Below are positions 9,801 to 50,856 of a stretch of 64,000 nt of DNA, piece after piece. The translations under genes were made by a program, and so were the position numbers. Every line of letters begins with the position of its first letter. Position 1 is the stretch's first letter. The DNA is from Alopecurus myosuroides (taxonomy: Eukaryota; Streptophyta; Magnoliopsida; Poales; Poaceae). The notes beneath the pieces are model-generated. The model was not told the origin of the DNA and made no database searches. It worked only from the letters and a program-made list of their open reading frames with translations. The DNA is taken from assembly GCA_028641055.1 (NCBI GenBank), contig CM054061.1, positions 112,476,019-112,540,018 on the forward strand, given 5' to 3'.

Positions 9801-11287
9801 TATGTTCTGGGGGCTCGATGTTAATCAATCAACCTATTAATAATAATATGATGTTAAGGCACCGGCAGGAGGCCCTGTGTGGTTTTGAAGCCTGCTAGTG
9901 TCGACCCTAATAGGAAAAGGGTCTTGTCTACTGATCCATGATGAGCGCACTAACCGCATGTGGGAAGCGAGTATGGGCGCCCCCCTCAATTTGATTCGAT
10001 TCGCATCTCGTCCAAATCGCCTCATTTAGTTCGTGTTTTCCATTTGCCGCATGCATGTTTTTGCGAGCCCAGCGCAGGGTGGAACTTTTGTAATCGGCAC
10101 ATAGGGGGACACGGTCTTAGAGTGCTATGAGGGTCCCTTTTCTTCGGGGCTTGATTAGCCGTGCGCCCAAGGTGCTTTGGGCTTGATGCGAAGAAGAGTT
10201 GGGTTGTGTTGAGTACCCCGCTTGGTGGGAGGAATCCCATCTGGCGGGTTATTCTTACGTGTACGGCCAAATTGGTGCACCCCTGCAGGGATAAATCTTC
10301 TCGAGAAGCCGTGTTTTCCGCGGTTATGGTTGACTTGGTGAAAGTACTGGCTAACAAGTACTCAGAACAACTTACACCTAACTAATGATAACTTGGCTAG
10401 TAATAGACTTATTGACATAACAACTTGATCCATTATTCATTAATCCAACTGTGTGAGTTATCCTCGGATTGCTTCTTTGGATAAGGGGCGAGATCCAGGA
10501 TGGGTTTGTTTGATGTTATCTTTCAGTTGGTTACTATACGCTATCTTATCTCCTTTCTGTTAGCCGGAAGTTGTAGTGTTTCTGTAGTTGGTTAGTGCAG
10601 CCAGTTGCAGCATCTTTTATATCCCCTTTCTTCCGTTGAACCCAAGGCATCTGTGCTTGGTGTTGACGGGTTACACTTTGGTGAACTGTGAGTCTTGCTT
10701 GCCAGTACGTTGTTGTACTGACCCCTTTGGGGCTGTGGTTTCCGCAGACTACGCTTACGAGGATCCAGGTGACGGCTACTACGTGGAGTTTGACGAGGCT
10801 GCTGATGAGTAGACAGCGGACCCGGGCAGGATCTGAGACTACGTGGATGGGCTCCGTCTTTCTTTCATTTCCCGGCTTCTTAAGCCTATTTGGATTTGTC
10901 TGTACTCAGACCCTTTGAATGCTTCCGCTGAGATGTAATGATGTTATGTTGGGACATGTGTCCTCTGGATGATTCTATTTGCTATTCTCTGCCCTAGTGA
11001 GGGCCATTTGCAACTTATTTCGATCTTTTGTGTCTTAGAGATATGTTGTGTTATCATTTCGTTTAACGCCGTTGACGTACCATGTGTGTATGGTATGAAG
11101 TACGTCAATGGTAGTACCTTTGATTTCTTTGGGATAGTTTACATCGACGGTGGATAGTAGAGTTTGGTTGTCGCACATAAGTGCTGGCCTACTCGTAAGA
11201 GGTTGCGGGAGCAGTTAAGCCCCGTAATCCATTCATCTACTATTCAGTTCGGACCGGTGAGTATCCTTTAGAAGTCAGGGTGCGACA
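6834..11287 (+). repeat. 3' LTR, 4454 bp
   Basis: It starts TGTAACATCCCAAG and ends GTGCGACA. Its last 1037 bases equal the visible part of the 5' LTR. It is AT-rich at 6850-7480 and 8420-9450, with many ATTCAAAT-type words, and has a GC-rich core at 7480-8420 that includes a tRNA-like segment. Its 3' third (about 9300-10390) is clearly homologous to the solo LTR at 45062-49240, in inverted orientation. No coding function is supported; short frames in it are chance. Confidence 0.93.
8208..8298 (+). other. tRNA-like segment with T-arm and Pol III terminator inside the LTR
   Basis: At 8253-8269 there is a perfect tRNA-type T-arm: stem CCAGG/CCTGG around the 7-base loop ATCGAGT, containing a B-box core GATCGAGTC. 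A T6 run follows at about 8294-8299. The upstream part (GGTTACAGCGAG) only weakly resembles a D-arm, and I cannot fold a complete cloverleaf. It is probably a tRNA-derived remnant and not a working tRNA gene. Confidence 0.4.
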
Positions 11288-20310: not shown

Positions 20311-20670
20311 GGTGGGCTATATATAGGGTCCTCTGGCTCATAAAGTGGTGTCCTAGGGTTTGATCCAACGGTTAAGACACACCCTGATCCAACGGCTCAC
20401 AACCGCTCGAAAGAAACACACCGTAGCCCTGATTGAACGGCTCACAACAGCTCGAAAGAAACACACCCCTGATCCAACGACTCACAAGCGCTTGAAAGAA
20501 ACACACGATCTGTGTGATTCTTTCTGATTGGTCCAAACGAAACCCTAACCATTTCGTCCCGGTTGGTAAAACAGGTCGGGACTAAAGGGACGATCCGTTT
20601 CCCAACGAAACCCGAACCATTTTGTCCCGGTTGGTAAAACAGGCCGGGACTAAAGGGATCTGTTTTCTTC
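20311..20670. repeat. Short direct repeats plus further internal CACTA-type repeats
   Basis: At 20345-20500 there are three copies of a CCTGATCCAACGGCTCACAA / CTCGAAAGAAACACAC module. At 20545-20665 two inverted pairs of GTCCCGGTTGGTAAAACAGG / CGGGACTAAAGGGA occur. The block shared with 40650-44499 begins near 20505. Confidence 0.75.
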
Positions 20671-21013
20671 TCACTATATATATGTATGCATTGCCACACC
20701 ATTGGCGACGACTACGAGTAGAACGGCGGCGACTATGAAGACTACGAGTATGCATATTATAAGCCTAGGCAGGAGTATGACTAAATCACTCCAACATTCC
20801 AAAATGTACTTCTAGGCCTATAGGCATGCCCTTCACATCAGTGGTTGTAGTTCAAATTTCACGTATCATCAGTGGTATCTCGAGTGGGTAGCAATGTGCA
20901 AGTCTTTGCTTGGTTGTGCTAGGGTGGGCCCCAAGGAAGCCCCAAAACACATCAGAGATAATATAATTCACATGATCCATTCAACAAAGTTTGGTACAAT
21001 AAATTATTACACA
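20671..21013. other. Presumed 3' untranslated region of A ORF1
   Basis: No gene is visible. It contains a TATATATATG stretch and ordinary mixed sequence up to the transposase stop codon. It is nearly identical to 40816-41158. Confidence 0.55.
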
Positions 21014-24000
21014 TCAATTCATCCCTTGTGTCCCTGATTGCTTACGATTGTGCCGCATCCAGGGAGCATCCTCATAATTTAACTTAATGCTTGGGTCAGT
21101 GTTCACTTTGAAGGGCGGAATTTCACCAAACGTATTATAATCTTCTGACATGTCTGTCTTGTCCTCCACTCTCAGGATGTTTCTTTTCCCTGAAAGAACA
21201 ATGTGAGGCTTTGGATCATCGCATGATGTACTGATCGTTTTCTTATCTTTCCGTTTCCCCGGTTTGCTACTCATGTCCTTCAAATAGAAAACCTGAGCGA
21301 CATCTTTGGCTAGGACGAATGGTTCGTCAAGGTAACCAATATTGTTGAAATCCACCATTGCCATTCCGTATTGCTCGTCCACCTTTACCCCACCTCCTGT
21401 TAGCTTGAACCATTTGCACCGGAACAAAGGGACCTTAAAGGAGGGTCCATAGTCAAGTTCCCATATCTCCTCTATGTAACCATAATATGTGACCTTTTGC
21501 CCAATCTCGGTTGCTGCATCAAAGCGGACACCACTGTTTTGGTTGGTGCTCTTTTTATCTTGGGAGATCGTGTAAAATGTATTCCCATTAATCTCGTACC
21601 CTTGGAAAGTCGTTATAGTCAAAGATGGTGTCTTGGCCAACATGTGCAGCTGATCTCCAACATCATTGTCATTCATTAAATGTTTTCGCAACCAACTGCC
21701 GAAAGTCCCCATGTGGACCTTTCTAATCCAGGTCAGGCTTACCCGGGTTGTCCGAGCATAAAATATTCTTGTGTTGCTCGAAGTACGGAGCCACCAAGCT
21801 CGAATTTTGCAGAACTGTGTGGTGTGCTTCAGTCATAGAATGACCTTCCATACATATCGTTGATTTCCTTCTGATCGTGCCTTTTCCACTTAGTCTCCCC
21901 TCGTGCCGCGATTGAGGAATACCAATCGGCTTAAGGTCAGGAACATAGTCAATACAGAACTCAATTACCTCCTCATTTCCATAGCCCTTGACGATGCTTC
22001 CTTCTGGCCTAGCACGGTTACGAACATATTTATTTAATACTCCCATGAACCTCTCAAAGGGGAACATATTGTGTAGAAATACATGACCGAGAATGGAAAT
22101 CTCTTCGACTAGGTGGAGCAGGAGGTGCGTCATAATATTGAAGAAGGATGGTGGGAACACCAACTCGAAACTGACAAGACATTGGACCACATCGTTTTGT
22201 AACCGTGGTAGATCTTCTGGATTGATTACCTTCTGAGATATTGCATTGAGGAATGCACATAGCTTCACAATGGCTACTCGATCATTTTCCGATAGGAGCC
22301 CCCTCAAAGCAATCGGAAGCAATTGCGTCATAATCACGTGGCAGTCGTGAGACTTCAGGTTTTGGAACTTTTTGTCTGCCATGTTTATTATTCCCTTTAT
22401 ATTTGACGAGAAGCCAGACGGGACCTTCATACTGCTCAGGCATTCAAAAAAAATGACCTTCTCTTCTTTGGTAAGAGAGTAGCTAGCACGACCTTGAAAC
22501 CATTCCGGATGCCGGTCATCTGGGTCTTTCAAAAGTTGCTGGTCCTGCCGTGCTTCATTTGTATCATTTGTCTTCCCATACACGCCCAAGAAGCTTAGAA
22601 GGTTCACGCAAATATTCTTCGTAACATGCATCACGTCGATTGCACAGCGGACATCTAGGACTTTCCAATATTGTAGCTCCGAAAATATAGATTTCTTCTT
22701 CCACATGGGTGCGTGCCCGTCAACTCCATGCATAACTGATTGTCCGCCAGGACTCTTTCCAAAGATGACTTTCAAATCCTTGACCATATCAAATATCTTA
22801 GCACCAGTACGTTCCGCAGGATTCGGCCGGTGACCTGCCTTGCTGTTGAAATGCTTTCCTTTCTTTCTTACGTTATGATTTCGGGGAAGAGATCGACGAT
22901 GACCCAGGTACACGTTCTTCTTACAATTATCCAAATATACACTTTCAGTCTAATGTAAGCAGTGTGTGCATGCTTTGTATCCCTTATTTGTCTGTCCCGA
23001 AAGGTTACTGAGAGCAGGCCAATCGTTGATGGTTACAAAAAGCAACGCTCTTAGGTCAAATTCCTCTTATTTGTGCTCATCCCACACACTACACCAGGTC
23101 TGCCCCACAGCTGTAAAAGTTCATCAACTAATGGCCTTAGGTACACATCTATGTCGTTGTCGGGTTGCTTCGGACCCTGGATGAGCACTGGCATCATAAT
23201 GAACTTACGCTTCATGCACAACCAAGGAGGAAGGTTGTAGATGCATAGAGTAGCGGGCCAGGTGCTATGGCTGGAGCTCTGCTCGCCAAAAGGATTCATG
23301 CCATCAGTACTTAGACCAAATCTTCTGTTCCTTTCGTCAGCTGCAAAATCTTTGAACTCTCTATCGATCTTTCTCCCTTGTGTTCCATCAGCGGGGTGTC
23401 TCAACTCCCCGTCGGACTTAAGGTCCTCTTTGTGCCATCGCAACAACTTGGCATGCTCTTTGTTCCTGAACAGACGTTTCAACCGTGGTATTATAGGAGC
23501 ATACCACATCACCTTGGCGGGAACCCTCTTCCTGGGTTTATCGCCCTCAACATTGTCACCGGGGTCATTGCCTCTGATCTTATAACGCAATGTAGTGCAT
23601 ACAGAACATTCATTCAAATTCTCGTATTCACCGCGGTATAGAGGATGCAGTCGTTAATGCATGCATGTATCTTCAGAACCTCTAAACCTAGAGGGCAGAC
23701 AACCTTCTTTGCTTCGTACGTACTGGCGGACAACTCGTTATTCTTTGGAAACATATTCTTCAACATTTTCAGCAAATTTTCAAATGATGAGTCAGCTATA
23801 CTTTCCCGTTCCTTCCATTTCAGCAAATCCAGTGTGCAGCCCAGCTTTTTCAGACTATTATCGCATCGTGGGTACAACGACTTTTTGTGATCCTCTAACA
23901 TGCGATCCAAATTCTCCCTCTCCTTGTCAGTTTCGCAGCGTCTCCATGCATCAGCAATGGTCCGACCAAGATAATCAGCAGGCTCATCATGTGCCTCTTC

Positions 24001-24387
24001 TTCACCTTCACCTTCCCCTTCCCCACCTTCAGCATCATCCTCCATGGAAGTATCACCGAAATGATCATGATAGTTGTCATCGATATCATCCCCTTCTTCA
24101 TCTTCTTCCATTCTAACGCCTATTTCTTCATGCTTGGTCCAACAATTATAGCTTGTCATGAAACCGTGTCGAAGCAGGTGCATGTGAACGTGTCTTGAGG
24201 AGGAGTAACCCTTCTGATTCTTACAGACAACACATGGACAGATAATAAAACCTCGCTGCTTGTTCGCATTTGCCACTACGAGGAAATCTTTCAAACCCGT
24301 AGTGAACTCGCCGGAGAGTCGGGTACCGTACATCCATTGCCGATTCATCTGCATTATTACTATATAAAGTATATAATTAACCATCAT
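21014..24387 (-). pseudogene. CACTA A ORF1: Transposase_21-type transposase
   Basis: In N- to C-terminal order the parts are: a Transpos_assoc-like N-terminus (NRQWMYGTRLSGEFTTG, CPCVVCKNQKGY, HLLRHGF), an acidic linker, the Transposase_21 region (FGLSTDGMNPFGEQSSSHS, LCIYNLPPWLCMKRKF, VMHVTKNICVNLLSFL), a DUF4218-like part (MFPFERFMGVLNKYVRNR) and a DUF4216-like C-terminus (VPLFRCKWFKLTGGG). These are the standard parts of plant CACTA transposases, which cut the element ends and join them to a new site. Lesions are a TA duplication shifting frame at 23637-23640, a frameshift near 23090, a stop at 23067-23069 and a private stop at 22950-22952. The first three are shared with the second copy at 41159-44499. 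The gene would be over 1000 residues if unbroken. Confidence 0.92.
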
Positions 24388-31004: not shown

Positions 31005-31372
31005 CCGTGACGCAGCGTGCCTCTTGTGCGTCACGGCTATCTGAAATAAGTGCGGCGCACATGGGGCCGGTGCGCCACGGATAGAGTTATTATGGGTGGA
31101 ACACATAGTCGTGACGCACCAGCCCCACGTGCGCCGCGCCTATTTCAGATAGTCGTGGCGCACCATAAGCACAGTGTGTCACGGGTACGACTGGGAGCCT
31201 CGCCACCCCGGGCCCACACATAGGCGCGGCGCGCCCCCTATTTGGTGCGCCACGGGTAAGGAGATAGGCGTGACGCACCGGGGAGCAGTGCGCCATGGCT
31301 TTTAGGCGTGACGCACTAACGTTCAGGTGCGTCACGGGGATGGTCACTCCTATAGCTATTTTCCTAGTACTG
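31005..31372. repeat. Element C right terminal and subterminal repeats
   Basis: At least eight alternating units of the GTGCGTCACGG and CGTGACGCACC types, some with GGTGCGCCACGG, run to the end TTTTCCTAGTACTG at 31372. The penultimate base differs from the standard CACTA terminus. Confidence 0.85.
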
Positions 31373-33590
31373 TTGGTTACGGATATATTGTGTGTCAGGT
31401 GTTCCATGAACACAAGTCTTGTGTCAGGTGCATGGAATTGACGCCGTTTATACATCTACACAAGGATCCCGGATCTTCTAAAACCGTATACATGAGGCAT
31501 CGAATGTGGCTACAACTAAACGACCCGTGGAGAATGCATGGAGACCTGTTCAACGGTAAAGATGAGCTTGATCTACCGCCACGCAAGAGAAGAGGAGAAG
31601 AGATCGATACTCTATTGAAGAATTGGAAAACGTGCCCTCCGCCGGGAAAGGTACAGAAGTGGAAGCTAGGAGAGAAGAGAAAGCGAGGAGAGAAAAAGTG
31701 TCCTCCGCTAGAAGGAGCGCATTTGGGGGTATGAAAAAGGAGGTCCGGGTTTTGGGACTTGCGGTACTGGCCAATCCTCGGAGTGCCTCACTGCCATGAT
31801 GTCATGCATATCACGAAGAATGTGTGTGAGAGCTTGCTTGGCACTCTATTCAACATGCCAGATAGGACCAAAGACGGGCCGAAATCAAGATACGACCTGA
31901 TGGTCCTGAATATCAGGAGTGGGCTTCACTTACCGCCTTCTACGCGTAAACAGGCGGAGGAGGATGAGGATGAGGTGGAGGAGATGGACGACCGCAAGCG
32001 GAAAAGGGCTAAGAAACACCAAACTCACCGCCTGAAACCCTCTTGATTCACTCTAAGTCCCGACGAGCTCGATCAAATATTCACATGCCTCCTCAGAGTC
32101 AAATTTCCCTTAGGTTACGCGGGGCTGATAAGCAGATACCGAGAAGTGGAGAAAAATCTTTAGCGGGATGAAGTCTCATGAATGTCACGTGATGATGATG
32201 CAGATACTTCCGTTGCAATGAGAGGGGTAATGGAACCGCACGTCCGGCAAACGCTTACTGGCCTCTGTAACTTTTTCGACGTCATCACCCGGAAGTCGTT
32301 AAGCTTGAAGAAACTCAGAAGGCTGCAAGAAGAGATCGTCACCATCCTATGCGAGCTTGAGATGTACTTCCCACTTGCCTTCTTTGACATTATGGAACAT
32401 CTCTTTGTCCATATCGTGGACGATATCACCAATCTTGGGCCGTCATTTATGCACAACATGATGGCATTAGAAAGAATGAACGGGATCATCAAATCATTCG
32501 TTCGTAACAGGGCACACCCGATGGAAGCATCGTCTAGGGATTTCTCACCGAAGAATGAATCTCTTTCTGCAAGAATTTTCTAGGCGAGGAGAAGCCAGTT
32601 GTTGGTTTGCCCGCAAACAAGCACCTTGACAAGTTCATGGGGGTAGGCCACAACACTGGCAAAAGGGTAATGGACGCGGACTCCTGTGGTCGGAGAGCCG
32701 ACTTTGATAGGGCCCACTTAGTAGTGTTACGACATATTGACGATGTCGACCCTTCGATAGAAGAGCACAAAACCACGATAAAAAACAATGCTCGCAGGCC
32801 GATGACGGAAGAAGAGATATTTAGAGCACACAAATCCTCTTTCGCGACATGGTTCAAAAAGCAGATTGATGCCAATCCCTCGGCAATGACATGTCAGAAA
32901 GATAAAAATGTATTGGCCTTGTCATATGGCCACGCGCCCAATATGATGACTTATCAAGCATACGACATCAATGGGTACACATTCTACACGGAGGAAAGTG
33001 ACAAAAGTAGCAACTATCAAAACTCGTCTATAACGATGGAATCTTACACGGGCGAAGAGATTAGAAGATACTACGGAAAGATCGAGGAAATATGGAAGCT
33101 TGACTACGTTGGGGAAAAGTTGTCGATGTTCCATGTTAGATGGGCTACAAATGTCCCGAAAGAAGACGAATATTTCACCACTATGTCGATGTCTGAAGCC
33201 AACAAACCCAAGTCCAAGAACCCCACCGTTCAAAATGAGCCGTGGGTATTGGCTAAGAACGTGGAACAATGTTTCTTCATAACCGACCCGACCAAGCCTA
33301 GTCGTGTTGTGGTAAGGAGAGGGAAAATGGCCCTCGTCAGAATGGATGGAGTCGCCGATGAGAAGGACTTCGACGGCTTAGTCGGAGACCCGATGATGGA
33401 AGAACCCGGTGAAGACGATGCACCATACACCACAAGAAGAAGCAGGACCACACTACCTGGGTCAGGTCTTCCATTCACAAGAAGAAGTCACGATATGGCG
33501 GTCACGTATTCAACATCGACTAAGAAAGGTAAGAGTAAGATTGTGACGAAAGGCCGAGAGAGGGAAATACTCGCGATATGTGCGATATAA
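31373..33590 (+). pseudogene. CACTA B ORF1, C-terminal two thirds of the transposase
   Basis: The frame opens at the C junction with GYGYIVCQVFHEHKSCVRCM, the Cys-rich part of Transposase_21. It continues with KDPGSSKTVYMRHR, DVMHITKNVCESLLGTL, a DUF4218-like part (LGPSFMHNMMALERMNGIIK) and a DUF4216-like end (KNVEQCFFITDPTKPSRVV), ending at 33590. Breaks occur near 31734, 32046, 32160 and 32583, mostly frameshifts and stops. The last block (32607-33590, 327 residues) is long and open. The N-terminal third is absent at this junction because element C inserted there. Confidence 0.88.
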
Positions 33591-33724: not shown

Positions 33725-33960
33725 CCCCTAGCTAACAAACACAGACGTATAACCTCCAAAATGCGCATGGGGTAAGTTTAGCGCAGGCGCATATTCACCA
33801 AATGCGCCCGGGGTAAGTATAGCACAGGCGCATAAGCCAATGCGCCTGGGGTAAGCTGTAACGCAGGTAGTATAGCGCAGGCGCACATGCTAATATGCCT
33901 GGGGTAAGCTGTAACGCAGGCGCGTATTGTGAAAAATGCGCCTGGGGTAAGTGCCCATTA
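33725..33960. repeat. Internal copies of element B subterminal repeats
   Basis: Four to five units of the form TGCGCCTGGGGTAAG, alternating with GCGCAGGCGCAT. They resemble the CCCCAGGCGA and CCGCAGGCGCACA units at B's right end (50590-50856), although they lie between ORF1 and ORF2. Confidence 0.8.
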
Positions 33961-36791: not shown

Positions 36792-39340
36792 ATGTCGTCT
36801 TCTTCTAGGGATCCGGCGTTATTGGACCACTACATGCTTATGGCCAGAGAGTCGCAAGAGGAAGAGAGGGCCAATGATAACGCTGACGATAGAACGACTG
36901 ACCAGCCCCCCGATGGCGAGCCCCACAACGATCACGGGCTCACCGGTGGCGAGGAAACCGTTGATAGTGGCGCCGGAAGTCCCTCTGAGAGTAGCATGGC
37001 GGCAAAGAAGCGTCGGAAGCGAGCTCCGAAAAAGGTCGGTACCGTTCGAGATAAATTCAAGGAGGTGGATCCTTCCAATGGCGTGCCTGTGTTGCCTAAG
37101 GACCTTGTGAAGGGGTACTTCCTCCAACTTGGCGCGATCCTTCGAGACGTCGTCAATATAAACGAGCTGACTCTCAAGAAGAAGCAAACTCTGCGCGCCC
37201 AACTCATCTCAAGGCTGCACGCGCGGTACGAGTCCCCCCCCCCCCTACAACAACAAGAATCTAAAGGGCAACCTGGTGAACAAACTCGCACTCACTAGAT
37301 TCACCAAAGCCCTCAGAAATTATAAGACTATGGTGAGGGAAATGATTAGGGACGAGGAACCATTCTAAGAGATCCATCGCCACTTCCCGCGGATTACGCC
37401 AGATGACTTCAAGATTTTCCTAGATAACCAGTCGCTTGAATTCACTAAGAATCAAACGATCTGGGGGAGGGACCTAGCGTCGAAGAACATCGGTCACCAC
37501 AATCTCGGCTGTCGTGGCTACGATAGGAAGGAGTCAGTTTGGGATAAATAGGACCAGACCTACATTGATAAAGGCCTTGAGAACCCCTACGCCAAGTTTG
37601 CCCATGACCCGTAGTTCCAAAAATTCATGAGGTCGAGGTACAGAAAAGTAACGCCGACCGGGGAACTTGTCACGGACACCAATATGGTGGAGAATGTTAT
37701 TTTGGTCACGGACGATAGCGTGAAGAATGTTGAGAAACTAGTGGTAATAAATTTACCATTTCATGCTACTCATCATCCTCAAGTCCATAAATTCATTCTA
37801 GTAACAAACCATTTCTAAACTGTTCATATGTTGCTTCTGCAGCTAGAAGAACAACAGCTTGAATCTTCCTCGTCGCAGACGTCGACAGCCAAAGTCGCGT
37901 GCGACAAGCCTTTTATCAGGGGGTACAACAAGGCAAAGAGCCAGGACCCGCTGAAAAGTCTGCACTTAGGCCGTATCACGGCGGCGGACTAAATAGGAAG
38001 CACGCCAAGTATGGCTTGGCTGAGCCCAGCAGTAAGGAGTCGCGGGAGGCGAAGAAGAGCCAGTCAAACGAGGAGGCGGAGTTGCTGAAGAAGAAGATGG
38101 CGGACATGGAAGCAAACATGGAGAAGCGGATTGAGAAAAATGTCGGGGAAAAGATGAATGACATCATACCCAACGTATTTGAAAAACTCTGTGGCTACAT
38201 CGCCGAAGGCGCACAGGGGCCGATGCCTACGATCAACATAGGCGCCGGAGGTGGACCGTCGATGTTGGTCATGCCCGGCGCGGCCGTTGCCGGTGGTCCG
38301 TCGACGTTGGCCGTGCCTGGCGCACCCGCCTTCGCCGTGCCCGACACGCCTGCCCCCGGTAGACCGTCTACCGTGTTCGGCGCGGCCGCAGCCGGTGGTC
38401 CGTTGATGTTATCATTTCTCGAGGAGCCCATCACCTGTGGTCTGTCGACGTTAGCCGAGCTCGATGCCCTCACGGTAAATTATTGACCATCTCAAGTTGT
38501 AGCCAGTTCAATATCACCCCACTCTCTGACCTAGCTATGCATGCTATCGCTGGCTGACGCGGCGGGATGCACCTTCCTACTAAAAGTGGGCAGCAAGTTG
38601 AAGGATGTTGCAAAGGGTAGCATCTTGCAGCCACTCTCCCACAAGTACCACTGCAGAGATAAACCGGCTAACGAGCTTCGGGTTCGTGTCGATCTGGTGT
38701 TACTGGGATTCTATCCTCCTAATAAACTCGCCGATGCCGACAGCGAGCTGAATCTAGGTCAACTCGAAAATCAAGTCTTGCTATGGCCGAAAGCCCTTAT
38801 TCGGCTGAACACCACGTGAGGGTTGGCGCCAAACCAACACATGGTCGTCACTACTGCACCTGTTGCGCCTGCGGCAAGCCAACAAGACAATGTCCTCCCT
38901 CCACCGGTGGATCCTCCTCCTCCCGAGCATGAGATGTCAAATCACGAGCATGAGAAACATGACGACTACATGGATATTGAATTTGCTCCCATTGATGATT
39001 TCATAAATCAGTTGGATGGCGAAGAGGTTCCTCCGGAGTTACCCACCGAAAATCTTAATATCCAGAAGAAGGTAGATGGAGAAAGAGGGTGGTCCTTCTG
39101 AGTTACCCACCAGAAAAACGGACATCCAGAAGAAGCTAACATATTCCCAAGAAACTCCCGAGGAGGAGACGGCCTTTACGGCTCCACAACTGATGGTGGT
39201 TACCCCAAATACACTCCGTGCTACGGCCGAGGAGGCGGTAAAACAAAGCGGCACTCCCATGTGCTTGAGGGCGAAGAAGCATCGGAAGAGGCCTGCAGCC
39301 AACAAGAAGAAAGGTGGTGCCTCCTCTAGTAGCCAGCCAT
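36792..39340 (+). pseudogene. CACTA B ORF2, first part
   Basis: The ATG at 36792 (MSSSSRDPALLDHYMLMARE) opens an acidic leader, a basic patch (KKRRKRAPKK, about residues 75-85) and VPVLPKDLVKGYFLQLGAIL. The block continues out of frame at 37300-37740 with HHNLGCRGYDRK and FMRSRYRKVTPTGELV, broken by stops. A likely intron runs from about 37742 to 37841 (GTGGTAAT to TTCTGCAG). Then come a coiled coil (ADMEANMEKRIEKNVGEKMN) and an Ala/Gly/Pro repeat rich in GGPSTL-like words (38230-38440). A domain with LLKVGSKLKDVAKGSI and LENQVLLWPKALI corresponds to A's RRLGDVKRQIILW domain. It stops at 39340, where an LTR begins. Confidence 0.75.
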
Positions 39341-40654
39341 TGTGTCACACCCCTGTTTTTAAGCACTTGTATAATAGTAATTTAGCAAGCCTGTTAAGAC
39401 TTTTGTAATACAATTAAGTGGACAACATGTTTGTGTAGTAATGTTTATCTATGCAATTTAAGTGGTGTCTTCTTTTCACTCACATGAGGATTTTTCTCCT
39501 AAGGAAAACTTTTGTTTTCTATTTGTTTTCCTATGTTTTCCACTAAGGTTCTTAGGAGAATATCCTTCAAAACTGGAGGTAACACTTTGCATCAACTTAG
39601 AAATGTGTTGTTGATGGTTAGAAATCAGCTTGACCTTGATTTAAAATTAATTGGAAAAGATTTCATTAGAATTTCCAATATAATTTTTGTCCTGAAAAAC
39701 AGCCAAGTAGCTGTTTTCAACCCTTGTTTTCCATCACAAGAATTATCCAATTATGGATTTTCTTTGATCAAAACTACTCTGTGTTATGAGGACAATAAAA
39801 CTACAACCTTGGAAAAACCTACAAAGTTTTTTTACACACAATGCCATGATGGTTTTTGAGCCATCTTGTTAAGACAGAAAGTTAGGCAATTTAAAAACAG
39901 AGAATGTACTTACTTTGCCATTTATTTTCAGAGCCATAAACCCCTCCATTTTCAAATCAAATGGTTGGTTATGAAACTTGGATAGTTGCTCTTTGTTTAG
40001 CTTTTTAAATCACTCATTTTGGAGTTTGTTTGCTTGGTGAAAACAAGTCCAACTTTTGCTATCTCTGTCTGCTTTTCCAGCACTTAGAAAAATTCAGAGA
40101 GCTGCCTAACTGAATTTTTCTGACAGAACAGTGATTACACTTTTAGACTTGATGTTTTAGCTTGTGTGTACTGATCCAAGCCAGGCCACTTTTCCATTTC
40201 GAAACTACTTGGTACTGAGCTTCTAGAAGGTGACATTGGATCCCATTTTGGCTGGTTAGGGAGGGAGAAAATGAGGTGGTCTTTGACTTGGTGATGATGT
40301 CACATTTAGTGGTTGAAATAGTGTAATTTTCACTTTTGCCCATCCCTTGGCCCCTACTGTGGCTTTGCTCACCCAAATGTACTAAGGTTAACCCCAGGGC
40401 ACCAATCAGAGGCGTTGCCACCCGTGGAGAACCCCCAAGGGGCAAGGCATGCCCATGCCATTGCCAACCCGAGCACACCCACCTTGGCCCCGGGCCTACA
40501 AAGCCCTAGAGGCCAATCCCTCTCGCCACAGCACTCTCCTCACTCCACTTGATCATCCCATCGAGCTCTCGCTTGCTCGTTCGCTCTGTGCGAGCGAGGC
40601 AAGCCGTGCCCATTCGCGAGCCCGTACAGATCGAGAGCGAGGTACCGTCGCGAT
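39341..40654 (+). mobile_element. Truncated gypsy-type LTR fragment inserted in B ORF2
   Basis: TGTCACACCCCTG at 39343 is a typical LTR start and interrupts ORF2 of B just after KKKGGASSSSQP. About 1.3 kb of non-coding LTR-like sequence follows, AT-rich first and GC-rich from 40340. At about 40650 it passes directly into sequence from the middle of CACTA A. No LTR end, primer binding site or internal genes follow. Confidence 0.6.
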
Positions 40655-43600
40655 CCGTGTGATTCTTTCTGATTGGTCCAAACGAAACCCTAACCATTTC
40701 GTCCCGGTTGGTAAAACAGGTCGGGACTAAAGGGACGATCTGTTTCCCAACGTAACCCGAACCATTTTGTCCCGGTTGGTAAAACAGGCCGGGACTAAAG
40801 GGATCTGTTTTCTTCTCACTATATATATGTATGCATTGCCACACCATTGGCGACGACTACGAGTAGAAAGGCGGCGACTATGAAGACTACGAGTATGCAT
40901 ATTATACGCCTAGGCAGGAGTATGACTAAATCACTCCAACATTCCAAAATGTACTTCTAGGCCTATAGGCATGCCCTTCACATCAGTGGTTGTAGTTCAA
41001 ATTTCACGTATCATCAGTGGTATCTCGAGTGGGTAGCAATGTGCAAGTCTTTGCTTGGTTGTGCTAGGGTGGGCCCCAAGGAAGCCCCAAAACACATCAG
41101 AGATAATATAATTCACATGATCCATTCAACAAAGTTTGGTACAATAAATTATTACACATCAATTCATCCCTTGTGTCCCTGATTGCTTACGATTGTGCCG
41201 CATCCAGGGAGCATCCTCATAATTTAACTTAATGCTTGGGTCAGTGTTCACTTTGAAGAGCGGAATTTCACCAAACGTATTATAATCTTCTGACATGTCT
41301 GTCTTGTCCTCCACTCTCAGGATGTTTCTTTTCCCTGAAAGAACAATGTGGGGCTTTGGATCATCGCATGATGTACTGATTGTTTTCTTATCTTTCCGTT
41401 TCCCCGGTTTGCTACTCATGTCCTTCAAATAGAAAACCTGAGCGACATCTTTGGCTAGGACGAATGGTTCGTCAAGGTAACCAAGATTGTTGAAATCCAC
41501 CATTGTCATTCCGTATTGCTCGTCCACCTTTACCCCACCTCCTGTTAGCTTGAACCATTTGCACCGGAACAAAGGGACCTTAAAGGAGGGTCCATAGTCA
41601 AGTTCCCATATCTCCTCTATGTAACCATAATATGTGACCTTTTGCCCAATCTCGGTTGCTGCATCAAAGCGGACACCACTGTTTTGGTTGGTGCTCTTTT
41701 TATCTTGGGAGATCGTGTAAAATGTATTCCCATTAATCTCGTACCCTTGGAAAGTCGTTATAGTCAAAGATGGTGTCTTGGCCAACATGTGCAGCTGATC
41801 TCCAACATCATTGTCATTCATTAAATGTTTTCGCAACCAACTGCCGAAAGTCCCCATGTGGACCTTTCTAATCCAGGTCAGGCTTACCCGGGTTGTCCGA
41901 GCATAAAATATTCTTGTGTTGCTCGAAGTACGGAGCCACCAAGCTCGAATTTTGCAGAACTGTGTGGTGTGCTTCAGTCATAGAATGACCGTCCATACAT
42001 ATCGTTGATTTCCTTCTGATCGTGCCTTTTCCACTTAGTCTCCCCTTGTGCCGCGATTGAGGAATACCAATCGGCTTAAGGTCAGGAACATAGTCAATAC
42101 AGAACTCAATTACCTCCTCATTTCCATAGCCCTTGACGATGCTTCCTTCTGGCCTAGCACGGTTACGAACATATTTATTTAATACTCCCATGAACCTCTC
42201 AAAGGGGAACATATTGTGTAGAAATACAGGACCGAGAATGGAAATCTCTTCGACTAGGTGGAGCAGGAGGTGCGTCATAATATTGAAGAAGGATGGTGGG
42301 AACACCAACTCGAAACTGACAAGACATTGGACCACATCGTTTTGTAACCGTTGTAGATCTTCTGGATTGATTACCTTCTGAGATATTGCATTGACGAATG
42401 CACATAGCTTCACAATGGCTACTCGATCATTTTCCGGTAGGAGCCCCCTCAAAGCAATCGGAAGCAATTGCGTCATAATCACGTGGCAGTCGTGAGACTT
42501 CAGGTTTTGGAACTTTTTGTCCGCCATGTTTATTATTCCCTTTATATTTGACGAGAAGCCAGACGGGACCTTCATACTGCCCAGGCATTCAAAAAAAATG
42601 ACCTTCTCTTCTTTGGTAACAGAGTAGCTAGCACGACCTTGAAACCATTCCGGATGCCGGTCATCTGGGTCTTTCAAAAGTTGCTGGTCCTGCCGTGCTT
42701 CATTTGTATCATTTGTCTTCCCATACACGCCCAAGAAGCTTAGAAGGTTCACGCAAATATTCTTCGTAACACGCATCACGTCGATTGCACAGCGGACATC
42801 TAGGACTTTCCAATATTGTAGCTCCCAAAATATAGATTTCTTCTTCCACATGGGTGCGTGCCCGTCAACTCCATGCAGAACTGATTGTCCGCCAGGACTC
42901 TTTCCAAAGATGACTTTCAAATCCTTGACCATATCAAATATCTTAGCACCAGTACGTTCCGCAGGCTTCGGCCGGTGACCTGCCTTGCTGTTGAAATGCT
43001 TGCCTTTCTTTCTTACGTTATGATTTCGGGGAAGAGATCGACGATGACCCAGGTACACGTTCTTCTTACAATTATCCAAATATACACTTTCAGTCTCATG
43101 TAAGCAGTGCGTGCATGCTTTGTATCCCTTATTTGTCTGTCCCGAAAGGTTACTGAGAGCAGGCCAATCGTTGATGGTTACAAAAAGCAACGCTCTTAGG
43201 TCAAATTCCTCTTATTTGTGCTCATCCCACACACTACACCAGGTCTGCCCCACAGCTGTAAAAGTTCATCAACTAATGGCCTTAGGTACACATCTATGTC
43301 GTTGTCGGGTTGCTTCGGACCTTGGATGAGCACTGGCATCATAATGAACTTACGCTTCATGCACAACCAAGGAGGAAGGTTGTAGATGCATAGAGTAGCG
43401 GGCCAGGTGCTATGGCTGGAGCTCTGCTCGCCAAAAGGATTCATGCCATCAGTACTTAGACCAAATCTTCTGTTCCTTTCGTCAGCTGCAAAATCTTTGA
43501 ACTCTCTATCGATCTTTCTCCCTTGCGTTCCATCAGCGGGGTGTCTCAACTCCCCGCCGGACTTAAGGTCCTCTTTGTGCCATCGCAACAACTTGGCATG

Positions 43601-44499
43601 CTCTTTGTTCCTGAACAGACGTTTCAACCGTGGTATTATAGGAGCATACCACATCACCTTGGCGGGAACCCTCTTCCTGGGTTTATCGCCCTCAACATTG
43701 TCACCAGGGTCATTGCCTCTGATCTTATAACGCAATGTAGTGCATACAGAACATTCATTCAAATTCTCGTATTCACCGCGGTATAGAGGATGCAGTCGTT
43801 AATGCATGCATGTATCTTCAGAACCTCTAAACCTAGAGGGCAGACAACCTTCTTTGCTTCGTACGTACTGGCGGACAACTCGTTATTCTTTGGAAACATA
43901 TTCTTCAACATTTTCAGCAAATTTTCAAATGATGAGTCAGCTATACTTTCCCGTTCCTTCCATTTCAGCAAATCCAGTGTGCAGCCCAGCTTTTTCAGAC
44001 TATTATCGCATCGTGGGTACAACGACTTTTTGTGATCCTCTAACATGCGATCCAAATTCTCCCTCTCCTTGTCAGTTTCGCAGCGTCTCCATGCATCAGC
44101 AATGGTCCGACCAAGATAATCAGCAGGCTCATCATGTGCCTCTTCTTCACCTTCACCTTCCCCTTCCCCACCTTCAGCATCATCCTCCATGGAAGTATCA
44201 CCGAAATGATCATGATAGTTGTCATCGATATCATCCCCTTCTTCATCTTCTTCCATTCTAACGCCTATTTCTTCATGCTTGGTCCAACAATTATAGCTTG
44301 TCATGAAACCGTGTCGAAGCAGGTGCATGTGAACGTGTCTTGAGGAGGAGTAACCCTTCTGATTCTTCCAGACAACACATGGACAGATAATAAAACCTCG
44401 CTGCTTGTTCGCATTTGCCACTACGAGGAAATCTTTCAAACCCGTAGTGAACTCGCCGGAGAGTCGGGTACCGTACATCCATTGCCGATTCATCTGCAT
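40650..44499 (-). repeat. Second copy of the CACTA A transposase region (3.85 kb)
   Basis: This segment equals 20505-24354 at a constant offset of 20145, in the same orientation. By eye there are about 30 substitutions (0.8%) and no length change. Both edges lie inside element A: the block starts among A's internal repeats and stops just inside the start of ORF1, without A's ends or ORF2. The left edge has a shared CGATC and the right edge falls after CTGCAT, so microhomology-driven copying or two-sided deletion is possible. Confidence 0.93.
41159..44499 (-). pseudogene. Transposase_21-type transposase, second copy
   Basis: Same domain order as 21014-24387. It shares three lesions with that copy: the TA duplication (at 43782-43785), the frameshift near 43235 and the stop at 43212-43214. 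It does not have the private stop of the first copy (position 43095-43097 codes Glu), so its central block is longer, 440 residues at 41868-43190. The extreme N-terminus is cut at 44499, where B's ORF2 resumes. One N-terminal cysteine of the CPCVVCKNQ motif is changed to Trp here (CPCVVWKNQ). Confidence 0.9.
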
Positions 44500-45061
44500 A
44501 TGAGGGGTTCTGGACCCTCCGGTCTGGGGCCTCTACACATTGGCCGCTCGAGTCCTGGACCGTTTGCCGCCCGCCGTCCCGTGGAGGAAGGTGCATGAGA
44601 TAGGTAAGCCGATGCTGCCACCAGAGGTTGTCACTGTCATGGGTGGTGACATGAGGAGCATCCACGACGGAATTTTGCAGAGAGAGACGGAACTTCTACG
44701 TGAGAAACATCCCTCCTACCCGCTATACGTGGTCAAGGTGCCCCGGTCCGCGGGCTTTGTGGATACAAACCCCGCAGAGGTGTTCTTCATTAGATATGAA
44801 GACGTATTCAGGGTCTTCCACTTGGGAAAGCTCGACCAAAGCATTGTCCGCCTGGTATCGCTCAGCATGGCGCACGATATGGTCATGGAGAATACCCCGA
44901 ACATCGCGATTATGGACCCCTACTACATGGTTGAGGACTACTTGATGTAACCTGCGAACCGGGTTGTTATCACGAACTATATAACGGGTTTTTTGATAGA
45001 TAACAAGGATAAGAACGCCATTCTCATGCCATACTTTCCCCTGTAAGTAGTCCTCTCTGCT
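44500..45061 (+). pseudogene. CACTA B ORF2, second part
   Basis: The frame resumes with LAARVLDRLPPAVPWRK and LPPEVVTVMGGDMRSIHDGI. A block with HPSYPLYVVKVPRSAGF, PAEVFFIRYEDVFRVFHLG and NIAIMDPYYMVEDYLM follows, to a stop at 44950. Related sequence then runs to the solo LTR (NYITGFLIDNKDKNAILMPY). It corresponds to the segment before the protease-like domain in A's ORF2 (GKEYVYADVTEE and ELFQLFNLRELDKS). Confidence 0.75.
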
Positions 45062-48000
45062 TGTGACGCCCCGAGATCGGGCACTATGCAGATTTCAGCA
45101 TTTCCGCCAAATCAGCATAATAACTGATTCCAGGTTGCCACTTGTGATAACATTACAACATTTCACGAATATTCCACAACAAGAGAAAAGATTTATACAA
45201 GACGACTCAAACGAGTCAAGAATACAACTGATACAATACAAAGATCCAAATAACAGCGGAAGAAACAACATAGTGTCCGACTACGGACAAGATACAAATT
45301 GGACTAAGAGTCCTGAAGATAACCGAGAGCATCCAATCCCTGCCCAGGCCAAGCCGGAGGGATTCCCAAGCTAACGTCGTCAGACTTTAAACCTGTTGAC
45401 TGCAATGTTGAATATGCAGCCACGAAACGGATTCGTGGGTCAGTACGGTTAGGTACTGGCAAGTCATACTCACAAGATACCAGCGTAACCAATCATCACA
45501 AGATACAAATACTTTGGGTACAACGGAAGGAAGGGATTATTGCAAAGAAGCGGCAGCGGGCTGCACTAACAACTAAAGAGACGCGTTACAACTTCCGGCT
45601 ATTAGAGAGGGATAAGAGAGCGCGACAAAACCAACTACAACTACTCGCCAAACAATACCCATCCAATGTTACCCCCTACTAAGGAAGCAACCCAAGGAAA
45701 CTCACAGTGTTGATTAGGATGACATCATTTTTATGGTGGAGGTAATCTATATTACTAGTCAAGTTATCATCGTTAAGTGTAAGTTGTCTGAGTACTTGTT
45801 AGCCAGCACTTTCACCAAGTCATCCATAACCGCGGACAACACGGCTTCTCGAGAAGATTTAACCCTGCAGGGATGCACCAATTTAGCCGTACACGTAAGA
45901 ATATCCCGCCAGACGGGGGATCAACCCACCAAGCGAGGTACTCAACACAACCCAACTCTTCTTCGCATCAAGCCCAAAGAACCCCGTGCAGTTGAGCGCA
46001 CGACTAATCAAGCCCCACGAAGAAAAGGGGACCCTCATAGCACTCTAAGAACGTGTCTCCCTAAATGCCGACTACAAAAGTTCCACCCTGGCGCCAAGGG
46101 TTCGCACCTGCATATGCATGCGGCAAATGGAAAACCCGAACTAAATGAGGCGATTTGGACGAGATGCGAATCGAATCAAGTTGAGGGGGGCGCCCATACT
46201 CGCTTCCCACATGCGGATAGTGCGCTCATCATGGATCAGTAGACAAGACCCTTTTCCTAATTAAGTTCGACACTAGCAGGCCTCAAAACCACGCCGGGCC
46301 TCCTGCCGGTGCCTTATCACCAAATTATTACTACCCCAAGCGTTAACATGAAGTTGATTAAGTTGAAACCCAACTATCAACTAAACAGGTGGTAGAACAA
46401 AGGACAACAGGACTCGAGCGCAAACAACACTAAGCATGCAACTACGACACGAGGGCCAACAAGGTAAACAAACAACAGTTAATAGGAAGTGGAAGGAAAG
46501 GCTATATCATGGCTGCAAGGTAAACATATGATAGGATCGAGACACAAGCATCGAATCAAAAGGCTAGAATAAGAACAACGAAAAGAATCGGTAACAAGTG
46601 ATGAAAGGCATCCATATGTAGCAAGTGAGTATACTTGCTTGAGATCCAGCAAGTAGAGGTACATCCGAAGAACTGGTCGTTGCTCACATCATCTCAACGT
46701 CCTATCCGCGAAGAAGCAACAAACTAGAACAAACACCGGATGCAACAATTACTTCTACGGCAAAAGATCCAGCATGATCAAGATATGGATGCATGACAAG
46801 TTTAAGGATGCATCAAAGATGAACTAGTTGACATGGTAAACATATTTAAATGGGCCCATATGCAATTTGGATTGCATATGGAAAAGCCCATGAATTAATG
46901 TTGAATTAAATGATCTACAAATAACCATCATGTGAAAGTTGATTAGGATGACGCATGGATGATGAAAACAATAAGAAAACAACAATAGTTTCAGTTTGAT
47001 ATGTTGTTTACCAAGTTTGGAATTTTATTTATTAAGTTATGAAATTTGGCTTCTTAAATGAGTTACACAAGCATTTATTGTTTTCACCCATTTTAATTGT
47101 TCAAAACAGATAACAAAATTTATATTTGGAAAGAACACAAAATTTTAGATGGAAAACATATTTCATTTGTTGAAAAAGGAATTAAAATGAGCAAGTTATT
47201 AATTTGGCAATTTTAATTGCATTAAATAAAAAACAGTTGTTTTCAGCAATTTAATTTATTCAAAACAGAAAACAAAGTTTATATTTGGAAAGCTTATTCA
47301 ATTTTGCATGGAAAACATATTTTATTTTTCAAATTTGGAGTTAAAATGAATTAGTTATGATTTATGCAATTAAATCAATTTAAATTGAGCCGGAAGCCCA
47401 ACATCTAATTTAGGAGGTTCACCCATCAAGATTAAATGTTGTTTAACATGGCGAGATAATATAAAGATGAGCTATGCAATTTTAAATGGAACCGGGACAA
47501 TATTTAATTATTCCAACTCATTCCATATTTAATTATTAGGTGATATTATTATTGCCCGCACCCACAATAGGCAATGCAACAAGATGAATGATTTAATATG
47601 CACGATATAGATGACATTTAGAAAATAGGCATATAGGTATAGGGTTGGGGTTGGGTTCGCACGTGTGGAGAGGATCTTCGGGTTCGGCGCCGGTGTCTTC
47701 GGGGTGTAGGGCAAGTAGAAGAAGAGGAGGAAGTAGAGGACATAGTTGACATAGAGGAAGGAGTGGAAGTAGTCGTAGCAGGGGAAGTAGCCGACATCGA
47801 GGACGTAGTCGTTCCAGGGTCATCGTCGTGGAGGTAGTCGTTCACGCCGTAGAGGAAGTAGTCGTTCTCGAATCACGCGGTCATCGTCGTCGAAGTAGTC
47901 GTAGTAGTCGTGGGCGATCCGCTATCATCGTTGTCTTCGAGGTTGATGGCGGACATGTCGGTCCCAATCTTCACGGCACGCACGAAGGCGGCCAACGCAA

Positions 48001-49240
48001 AGCGGACATGGTGAAGGCGATGTAGTCGTTCACGGTTCGTCGAGGGAGTAGTCGTGGTCGAGGTTTGGTCCGAGGTTCTCGGTTCGGGGTAGCGGTACTT
48101 GTCGAAGATGATCTTGTTGTCGGAGGTACGGGGACGTAGACGTTGTAGTGGAAGGAGTCGTACACGTCCGTAGTCGAAGTAGTCGTGGACGCGGAAGTAG
48201 TCATTTGGGGTCGGAGGAGATCTTGGCGGTTCCCCGGTCGTCGAGGTTCACGACAACGGTCTCACAAACACGCACGAAGGCGGCACACAAAGCAGGGGCA
48301 CTACTACTCCACAACGTCGAACCGTTGCGGCATTACATCGAACAGGCTGACGGCATCCTCGATGAACCTGGCCTCCGGCGGCCACCGGTCGCGGTCTTTG
48401 CCGAGGACGATCTCGAACTGGCGGGGCAGCGGCAGTATCCGTCTACCCATCCTCCCCTCTCCCTTGACCGGCGGCAGTGAGCAGAGAGAGGAGGGCGACG
48501 GGGTCGGCGACGTCCGCCGCGGGGACACGAGCTCGGTGGCGGCCAGCCGTGGCAGTGAGCAGAGAGAGGAGGCGGAGGTGGTCGGGCTTGGGACGAGGTG
48601 GAGGAGGGGGCCCGGCGGGGCGCCGGCCGTCCGTGGCTGCGGCGGGGAGGAGGCGCCGGTGGCGGGGCGCGGCGGCCGGCGGGAGCAGAGGACGGCCGCG
48701 GGCCTTCTCCTTGGCGGCGGCGCGAGCAGCGAAGATGGAGGGGGCGGCGGAGCTTGAGGGAAGGAGGACGGCGGGCGGAGGAGAGGGAGACGGGCAGGGG
48801 GAGCGACGAGGGAGAGGGTGCGGCGGCGGCGTCACCTTCTGTCGATGGAGGAAGGAGGCAGCGAGCGATACCAGCAGGGAGGCTGCACTGGGTGTAGGGG
48901 ATCGATCGGGATCCCCTCCCGTGCGTGTGTTGCGTGCGATGCGTGTGTTGTGTGCGCTGTGTGTGTCGTGTGCGTGCGTGTGTTCTGGGTGCGGGTGTGG
49001 GGATGGGCTAGGGTTAGGTTTGGTGGGTTGGTTGGGCCATCCCAAAACACATTTGTTTTTTTTCTCAGAAACTGCTTAGCAAATATTAACATGGCTCAAT
49101 GCAGCATATAATTTTCAGAATATTCCAGAAAATAAGTTTTGATGATTTTTAAAATTGTTTGCATGAGGATGCGCAATGCCATGCGATGCGAGAGAACAGA
49201 AAAGAGCAAACAATCTATTTGGGGAACCCCGGGCGTTACA
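45062..49240 (-). mobile_element. Solo LTR, 4179 bp, Tekay-like
   Basis: Read on the minus strand it starts TGTAACGCCCGGGG (ending at 49240) and ends GGGGCGTCACA (at 45062). CTGCT flanks both sides (45057-45061 and 49241-49245), a 5-base target duplication, and no internal gypsy region is present, so this is a solo LTR. The part at 45770-46890 is clearly homologous, inverted, to 9300-10390 of the first gypsy LTR, while the outer parts differ. It is a related but distinct family. GC-rich open frames at 47600-49100 are chance frames. Confidence 0.93.
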
Positions 49241-49810
49241 CTGCTTCCCGTCATTACATTCTTTCTAGAATCTCCTTAGTATTCCGATGATGATGGCTTG
49301 TTCGAAATTTTCTGCGCAGAAAAGGAGGATGCACACTCGTAGTCATGGAACCGCATTGGTCGCAATGCACTTATCTCGATGCGGGTAGAACGGTGCAGAA
49401 GGACTACAACGAGATAAAAGCTATTCTTAGTAGTGCCCTCAACGGATTCGCCTCTTATTTAGGCAAGCCCCTAAAAAGGAGAAAATAGTCCGAGGCGCCT
49501 ACGTGTGCAACCACGTAACAAACTTCCCCTGCCTGAAGAAATCGGCACAAGAACCTGGGTTGGAAGCTTGGTATGCCATCTTTCAGATGAGGGAGTACTT
49601 AAAGGATTCCGAAGAGGTATTTTTACCAAGTCATCCCCGAGACATGACCACAAAGATGGCCAACACCCACGGTGAATATGTGCGAGCTCAGTTCCGTCGC
49701 ATCCAGCGGAGGATCTGCACGATACTCAAGTCGTATGTCATCAGTAGGGGTGGCTTTTTTTTTCACGGACACGCACCACCGAGCAACCGTGACATAGAAG
49801 CACGCCTATG
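49241..49810 (+). pseudogene. CACTA B ORF2, C-terminal C48-protease-like part lacking the catalytic Cys
   Basis: After the solo LTR the sequence continues with EPHWSQCTYLDAGRTVQKDY (His and Asp positions of an Ulp1-like fold), SALNGFASYLGKPLKRRK and a stop near 49487. Another frame then gives CNHVTNFPCLKKSAQEPGLE, AWYAIFQMREYLKD and ANTHGEYVRAQFRRIQRRIC, ending at 49810. Where A has NLCGYYVCEH, this copy has GLEAWYAIFQ, with no cysteine at the nucleophile site. The protein is thus probably a non-catalytic relative, even before the frame was broken. Confidence 0.7.
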
Positions 49811-50073
49811 AGAGCAACGTGACATCCGAACATTCAACACGCTAGAAGGCGTTCGTCCGTTCCCGCCGAGACCATAGGATTGACAAAATGTTAGTATACA
49901 CTTGATGGTTAACTTTCCAATGCACAGAATCTCAATATACTTGCACCATATAACTTTTAGTCCTTTATTTTTCATGTTTTATTTATAAACCTTGATGCTT
50001 CTATTCTTTTGATAGTTATTTGCAGTCTATTATCAATTTCCATGCTAAACACGTATTTTTGTCTTGTGCACGG

Positions 50074-50325
50074 ATGACATGGTATGTTGTGTATATCGGT
50101 AGTGTTCCCGGAGTCTACGACGATTGGGAACAATGCCGGAGACAGGTGCACGGTTTCAGCGGCAACATCTACAAGGGGTACAAGAGCATGGTGGAGGCGG
50201 AAGCTCAATACGCCACTTACCTAGCGAGAGAGAAGACGGATACGACGAGGGCCCGGATGACCACCTTCGCCATCACCGTGGTGATACTCCTTGTGTTGAT
50301 GCTACTTACTCTAGTGCTTGTGTAG
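50074..50325 (+). CDS. Small protein: RNase H1-type hybrid-binding domain plus C-terminal membrane helix
   Basis: An 83-codon intact frame near the 3' end of element B. Residues 3-50 match the N-terminal RNase H1 hybrid-binding domain (also called the viroplasmin or Cauli_VI fold): WYVVYIGSVPGVYDDWEQC, then QVHGFSGNIYKGYKS, then EAEAQYATYLAREK. This fold binds RNA/DNA hybrids or double-stranded RNA. Residues 62-83 are a hydrophobic helix, TTFAITVVILLVLMLLTLVL, running to the stop, so a tail anchor is predicted. The ATG at 50074 was chosen because the domain starts there; the frame is open 18 codons further up, and a TTTGCAG acceptor-like site at about 50018-50024 suggests splicing from an upstream exon. 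It is the only unbroken gene in B. Whether it is expressed is not known. Confidence 0.65.
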   Translation: MTWYVVYIGSVPGVYDDWEQCRRQVHGFSGNIYKGYKSMVEAEAQYATYLAREKTDTTRARMTTFAITVVILLVLMLLTLVLV

Positions 50326-50589: not shown

Positions 50590-50856
50590 CACAGGTAAAA
50601 CTTAGCACAGGCGAACAACACATATACCCCAGGCGAATAGATTCCCCAGGCACATAGGCCTTGTTCGCCACTGTTGTGTGGACATACCGCAGGCGCACAA
50701 GGCATATTCGCATGCGGTAGCATCAGTTACCACATGCGCATATGTTTGTTCGCCTGTGGTAATTCATTACCACTGGTGATATGGTCCGAGGCGAATTGTT
50801 ATTCGCTTGTGGTAATAGAAAATAATTCGCTTGGGGTATAGTTTTCCCTAGTAGTG
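50590..50856. repeat. Element B right terminal and subterminal repeats
   Basis: Alternating units such as CCCCAGGCGAATAG, CCGCAGGCGCACA, TTCGCCTGTGGTAA and TTCGCTTGTGGTAA lead to the end TTTTCCCTAGTAGTG at 50856. Confidence 0.88.

Follow-up and report, generated by a model that had tools for sequence, protein, structure and literature searches.

Close to the right end of a CACTA transposon in Alopecurus myosuroides lies a short open reading frame (ORF) whose predicted product joins an RNase H1-type hybrid-binding domain (HBD) to a hydrophobic C-terminal tail. Does this HBD-tail ORF belong to the transposon as a gene of its own, is it part of a neighboring gene, or is it host sequence carried along, and what might its product do? 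We approached these questions by computational analysis of the 64,000-nucleotide stretch of DNA that contains the ORF (hereafter the window) and of related proteins in databases.

A hybrid-binding domain followed by a hydrophobic tail

The HBD-tail ORF occupies positions 50074-50325 on the plus strand and consists of 83 codons followed by a TAG stop; its translation contains the motifs quoted in an earlier note on this DNA, which had also proposed that the product carries an RNase H1-type HBD. This domain assignment is borne out by a match of residues 3-44 (50080-50205, plus strand) to PF01693 (Cauli_VI; the RNase H1-type HBD) with an E value of 1.7e-15 and a score of 57.4 bits, above the curated cut-off of 21 bits. 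The 83-residue sequence also matches the structure of the yeast RNase H1 HBD (1qhk; E 1.5e-6) and, weakly, that of the human RNase H1 HBD (3bsu; E 0.078). An AlphaFold model of the protein, based on 65 sequences, has a mean pLDDT of 79.9, with lower values over the HBD, and consists of two strands and a helix followed by a single long C-terminal helix (residues 39-82). When this model was compared with known structures by Foldseek, 3bsu and 1qhk filled the top six rows with modest scores (E 0.19-0.30, probability 0.75-0.82). An RNase H catalytic domain is absent from the 83-residue product (P0001): PF01693 alone exceeds its Pfam cut-off, and the frame stops after the tail. Judged by this domain content, the product is not an RNase H, despite the automatic names of its database relatives (Ribonuclease H, or viroplasmin and RNaseH domain protein).

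The tail (residues 63-83; 50260-50322, plus strand) is read from the translation, the modeled helix and hydropathy as a putative single membrane helix with basic residues before it. Residues 65-83 are hydrophobic, in agreement with the hydrophobic C-terminus claimed earlier; no charge occurs past Arg61, and the best charge-free stretch of 17 residues after the HBD has a mean hydropathy of 3.36. By hydropathy, the protein has the single hydrophobic segment at its extreme C-terminus that is typical of tail-anchored proteins. We defined an explicit test for such a tail, requiring a 17-residue stretch after the HBD that lacks D, E, K and R and has a mean Kyte-Doolittle hydropathy of at least 1.6. 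The earlier note had named the lack of a tail in other copies as an outcome that would speak against its proposal; instead, 54 of the 64 database relatives described below pass the test. By inspection, eight of the ten that fail are truncated or have a changed sequence past the HBD, P0044 fails through a charge in its tail, and the uncharged tail of P0065, at 16 residues, is a single residue shorter than the test requires.

For 59 of the 64 relatives, the alignment spans 90% or more of the 83 columns. Their identity to the window sequence averages 73% over the HBD, 50% over the linker and 23% over the tail, the HBD value being inflated by the selection of relatives for their likeness to the window HBD; 54 of these 59 pass the tail test. 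Pairwise alignment of the tails of 52 relatives gave a mean identity to the window tail of 32%. By contrast, when the window tail was mutated randomly, without stops, to at most 30% identity, 666 of 3000 sequences passed, and mutation to 40% identity left 1082 of 3000 passing. This contrast depends on a simulation matched to the divergence of the tail and not to that of the entire protein: random mutation of the whole ORF down to the overall identity seen in the relatives left a passing tail in 58% of 3000 sequences. Compared as fractions, without a p-value and among relatives that share ancestry, the natural tails pass far more often than randomly mutated ones, and therefore hydrophobicity appears to have been kept while the letters changed, as expected of a membrane segment under selection.

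The surrounding CACTA element

A perfect CACTA terminus, CACTACTAGGGAAA, lies on the minus strand at 50843-50856; from the stop codon of the HBD-tail ORF to position 50856 is 531 bp, matching the distance of about 530 bp to the right end of the element that the earlier note had given. This 14-mer and the clustered subterminal repeats that precede it make up the right end of the element (50602-50856), and the flank beyond the terminus, at the target-site position, reads TCC. The left CACTA terminus of the element was not found within the 64-kb window.

Upstream of the HBD-tail ORF and on the same strand, where the earlier note had placed it, lies ORF2, which we traced between 37035 and 49823 by homology to Lolium gene models. 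It consists of a decayed N-terminal part with stops, frame changes and possibly included introns (37035-39330), a middle part with an in-frame stop at 44948 (44552-45037), and a C-terminal part with a frame change near 49464-49473 and an in-frame stop at 49809 (49309-49823), all on the plus strand. Farther upstream, in the same orientation, is a CACTA transposase remnant (31312-33533, plus strand) with a Transposase_21 match at 31312-31731 (E 5.8e-11) and a weak DUF4216 match; this tnp2-type transposase is assigned to the element through its collinearity with the Lolium gene model P0078 (see below). The order within the window is transposase, ORF2, HBD and right terminus.

Two large inserts split ORF2. 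One is an unrelated insert of about 4.2 kb (45058-49243), with approximate ends placed by eye; these ends read tgacgccccgagatcgggcac and ccccgggcgttaca, and parts of the insert resemble the window at 8.6-10.7 kb. The other (40651-44499, minus strand) is a direct copy of window 20506-24354, the two being 3849 bp long and 99.2% identical, and contains part of a CACTA transposase (minus strand, DUF4216). Elsewhere in the window, five subterminal-type repeats resembling TACCCCAGGCGCA lie on the minus strand at 33762-33949, between the transposase remnant and ORF2 and distant from the right end. A further pair of direct copies, 99.1% identical and about 10 kb apart, occupies 1-1037 and 10251-11287; perhaps, though this is a guess, they are the long terminal repeats of one young retrotransposon.

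In addition to the inserts, the roughly 3.3 kb of ORF2 contain, by our count, 10 stops and 4 frame changes, some of them possibly intronic. Because about one disabling hit would be expected in 249 bp at this density, an intact HBD-tail ORF in the window is unsurprising by chance. The earlier contrast between broken neighboring genes and an intact HBD-tail gene is thus correct as to the decay of ORF2; the intactness itself is unremarkable, and we dropped it as a sign of selection. ORF2 gave us the impression of a Ulp1-like protein; Pfam yielded no match to a Ulp1-like domain up to E 0.01, a profile of ORF2-containing proteins had 0 matches among PDB sequences, and the AlphaFold model of the ORF2-HBD protein P0077 was poor (mean pLDDT 36.7).

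Relatives and their linkage to ORF2

A search of about 5.8 billion proteins at E ≤0.01 recovered 64 relatives of the HBD-tail product (from 64 candidates), 47-88% identical to it over the aligned part. They are 58-141 residues long, 43 of the 64 falling between 81 and 87 residues, and dozens of diverged relatives, which are not independent of one another, have reading frame, length and stop position in common. Relative to its nearest relative, P0002, the window sequence differs at 6 of 22 positions upstream and at 8 of 62 in the coding part, a difference that is not significant (Fisher p 0.18). When 65 family members were compared with the window by tblastn, a single HBD location was found at E ≤0.01, besides a weak match of P0061 at 16965-16891 (E 0.009), which, as a single weak match, we took to be chance. 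Among viral contigs, nine stretches matched a pattern and none was confirmed; bacterial and archaeal contigs contained two loci, titled as an Anaerolineae and a Bacteroides MAG, that match query residues 3-36 and 3-46.

The earlier note had proposed checking whether relatives lie between a CACTA ORF2 and its 3' terminal repeats. In 11 Lolium multiflorum gene models, all bearing names of one annotation (QYE76), ORF2 is followed by the HBD (P0066, P0067, P0069 and P0072-P0079; P0066 and P0067 surfaced once the length range of the search was widened). By tblastn, all 11 match the ORF2 pieces of the window in order and 10 match its HBD, the exception being P0069, a fragment that is too short, with 23 HBD residues. 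The 1080-residue model P0078 runs from the end of the transposase through ORF2 to the HBD and is collinear with window 32736-33068, 37035-39264, 44552-44794, 49309-49676 and 50074-50235; the transposase end of P0078 also aligns, though less well, with further transposase copies in the window. Searching with a portion of P0067 recovered 13 matches from 42 candidates, the query itself among them. Ten of the 13 carry the HBD, and three (P0068, P0070 and P0071 from barley) have ORF2 sequence with the HBD absent. Because P0068 joins a DUF4218 transposase domain to this same ORF2 (DUF4218 scoring above its cut-off and DUF4216 below), ORF2 is tied to CACTA.

The hydrophobic tail is reached in five of the 11 models (P0073 and P0075-P0078), and the other six leave the HBD frame before it. 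Five of these six (P0066, P0067, P0072, P0074 and P0079) depart at one common point, directly after YKG. This shared exit point suggests that the HBD contains a cryptic splice donor that is used recurrently. One further Lolium multiflorum model, P0021, joins a partial B3-like DNA-binding domain (PF02362, E 9.5e-5, below the Pfam cut-off) to the HBD-tail module, and could be a predictor artefact or come from another type of element.

A 76-row tree divides the ORF2-linked HBDs into a group of seven, a group of three that falls in the starred clade with the window copy, and P0069, which stands apart; few columns underlie this tree, many of its forks are open, and the long branch of P0069 makes its placement unsure. 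Since ORF2-linked HBDs thereby occupy two, perhaps three, branches, the linkage between ORF2 and the HBD is probably old in the CACTA lineage.

Origin, proposed role and known systems

On the strength of these sequence comparisons, a coding unit composed of an HBD and a hydrophobic tail is real and recurs as a third unit in a lineage of grass CACTA elements. Its product is probably a tail-anchored module that binds hybrids or dsRNA, made either as a small protein in its own right or, through a last exon, as part of an ORF2 isoform. The latter arrangement, in which HBD-tail is an alternative last exon that yields a membrane-anchored, hybrid-binding form of ORF2, strikes us as possible, and we hold it only tentatively. 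ORF2 is joined in frame to the HBD in all 11 Lolium models, of which P0076 and P0077 represent clusters of 22 and 23 member sequences; the residues that precede the Met (N, H or D in the Lolium models; Q, E and D in several others) fit, as far as protein letters tell, an acceptor AG at the ATG or two bases before it; and CACTA elements are described as joining distant exons, mosaic splicing being known for En/Spm and soybean Tgmt* (PMC2613891). Against a last exon, the ORF2 donors vary by lineage (after TTDE or TTDK, KGG, QPSN and others), as if a gene predictor were improvising; ORF2 has its own C-terminus in P0068 and P0071; the triplet before the ATG in the window is CGG; and in P0021 the HBD is joined to a B3-like exon instead of ORF2. 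Met1, moreover, is nearly invariant among relatives (P0055 has Ile) and would not be needed in an internal exon, although its conservation is biased in that most database ORFs are called from an ATG. Because of the conserved Met, the separate ORF2 C-termini and the inconsistent Lolium donors, a separate ORF appears the likelier arrangement.

Could the unit instead be of host origin and without a role in transposition? A fragment of host RNase H1 that an ancestral CACTA element picked up on one occasion and then spread as a functionless passenger seems to us improbable. Capture of host sequence by CACTA elements is described (PMC13317346), and such a passenger would be compatible with the lesion tally, under which the intact window copy could be due to chance, with the non-significant difference between upstream and coding divergence from P0002, and with the loss or alteration of the tail in 10 of 64 relatives. 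It would not, however, lead one to expect a tail that stays hydrophobic as its letters change, or a frame, length and stop position that recur across dozens of diverged relatives; neutral copies should mostly decay, though protein databases are places where intact ORFs are seen. The other host scenario, a normal family of host genes that has nothing to do with transposition and lies inside the element by chance, finds an echo in the automatic names of the relatives. It is very improbable given the ORF2 linkage in 11 models and at least two HBD branches, collinear with the window, and given the mere 531 bp between the HBD-tail ORF and a CACTA terminus. The recurrent linkage to ORF2 in the tree and in the 11 models likewise disfavors the outcome, raised in the earlier note, of an ordinary host gene captured once.

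We therefore lean, with some reserve, towards a grass CACTA (En/Spm) lineage that has a third coding unit after the transposase and ORF2, mainly translated as a tail-anchored protein that would bind hybrids or dsRNA. The unit would comprise about 83 residues, made up of an RNase H1-type HBD, a basic linker and a C-terminal hydrophobic helix, with translation starting mainly at its own Met. When a C-terminal helix follows basic residues and has hardly anything behind it, the preceding domain is left on the cytosolic or nucleoplasmic side of the membrane, and the HBD would thus be expected to face the cytosol or nucleoplasm. There it could bind RNA/DNA hybrid or dsRNA, whether produced by the element or directed against it. 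The likeliest use would be to hold or shield transposon RNA at the endoplasmic reticulum (ER) or nuclear envelope and so lessen silencing by small RNAs, the last step being a guess for which caulimovirus P6 serves as the analogy; hybrids that arise at the element could likewise be held on these membranes. That the protein in fact works there against silencing or in transposition, as a counterpart to the P6 strategy and a third functional CACTA gene, is a speculative proposal that we regard as rather doubtful.

A conserved third unit with an HBD and a membrane anchor would represent a new kind of DNA-transposon accessory factor, one that would connect membranes with the binding of hybrids or dsRNA and, possibly, with escape from silencing. 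Some Lolium gene models named Ribonuclease H would then be explained as nuclease-less parts of transposons, and CACTA families can be highly abundant in grasses (PMC4158355). Among the papers listed, within literature coverage that omits most subscription papers, no title or opening of an abstract describes an RNase H1 N-terminal domain in CACTA, and CACTA together with viroplasmin gave no match.

The HBD-tail product shares with RNase H1 (3bsu, 1qhk) a domain of about 42 residues, in which the aligned Trp is retained, as is the first Lys of the KK pair of the human domain: among the window sequence and its relatives, 60 of 65 rows have Trp18 and 64 of 65 have Lys34. In the structure of human RNase H1, the aligned Trp and this first Lys have a role in hybrid binding. 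The second Lys of the pair aligns to Gly35 of the window sequence, which is Gly in 65 of 65 rows, and where RNase H1 has a catalytic domain the HBD-tail product has a hydrophobic helix after the HBD.

Compared by description only, P6, the transactivator-viroplasmin of caulimoviruses, likewise carries a PF01693-type domain (PMC7657459, PMC3836500) and likewise originates in a genetic parasite of plants, and it suppresses RNA silencing, probably through DRB4 (PMC3836500). According to the available parts of these descriptions, however, P6 is a many-domained protein of 520 residues, as opposed to 83, whose silencing suppression is not demonstrably due to its HBD-type domain, and a membrane tail such as that of the HBD-tail ORF is not mentioned in them. 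The VANC protein of VANDAL transposons (PMC10398659, PMC13317346) provides a precedent for a plant DNA transposon that codes for an accessory protein against silencing; as described there, VANC binds specific noncoding DNA of its own elements, and VANDAL belongs to another superfamily (MULE). A barley MULE with a third ORF is also described (PMC9168764); we set it aside as a precedent, as it is of another superfamily and the available part of that text contains no word beginning with RNase.

With classical CACTA (En/Spm) elements, the lineage in the window shares a CACTA terminus, subterminal repeats and a Transposase_21 / DUF4218 / DUF4216 transposase followed by an ORF2, which is TNPA-like in the classical elements. 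Whereas a full-length CACTA element is described, in the part of the source available, as having two ORFs between its terminal repeats (PMC4158355), the lineage in the window has an additional HBD-tail unit between ORF2 and the right end.
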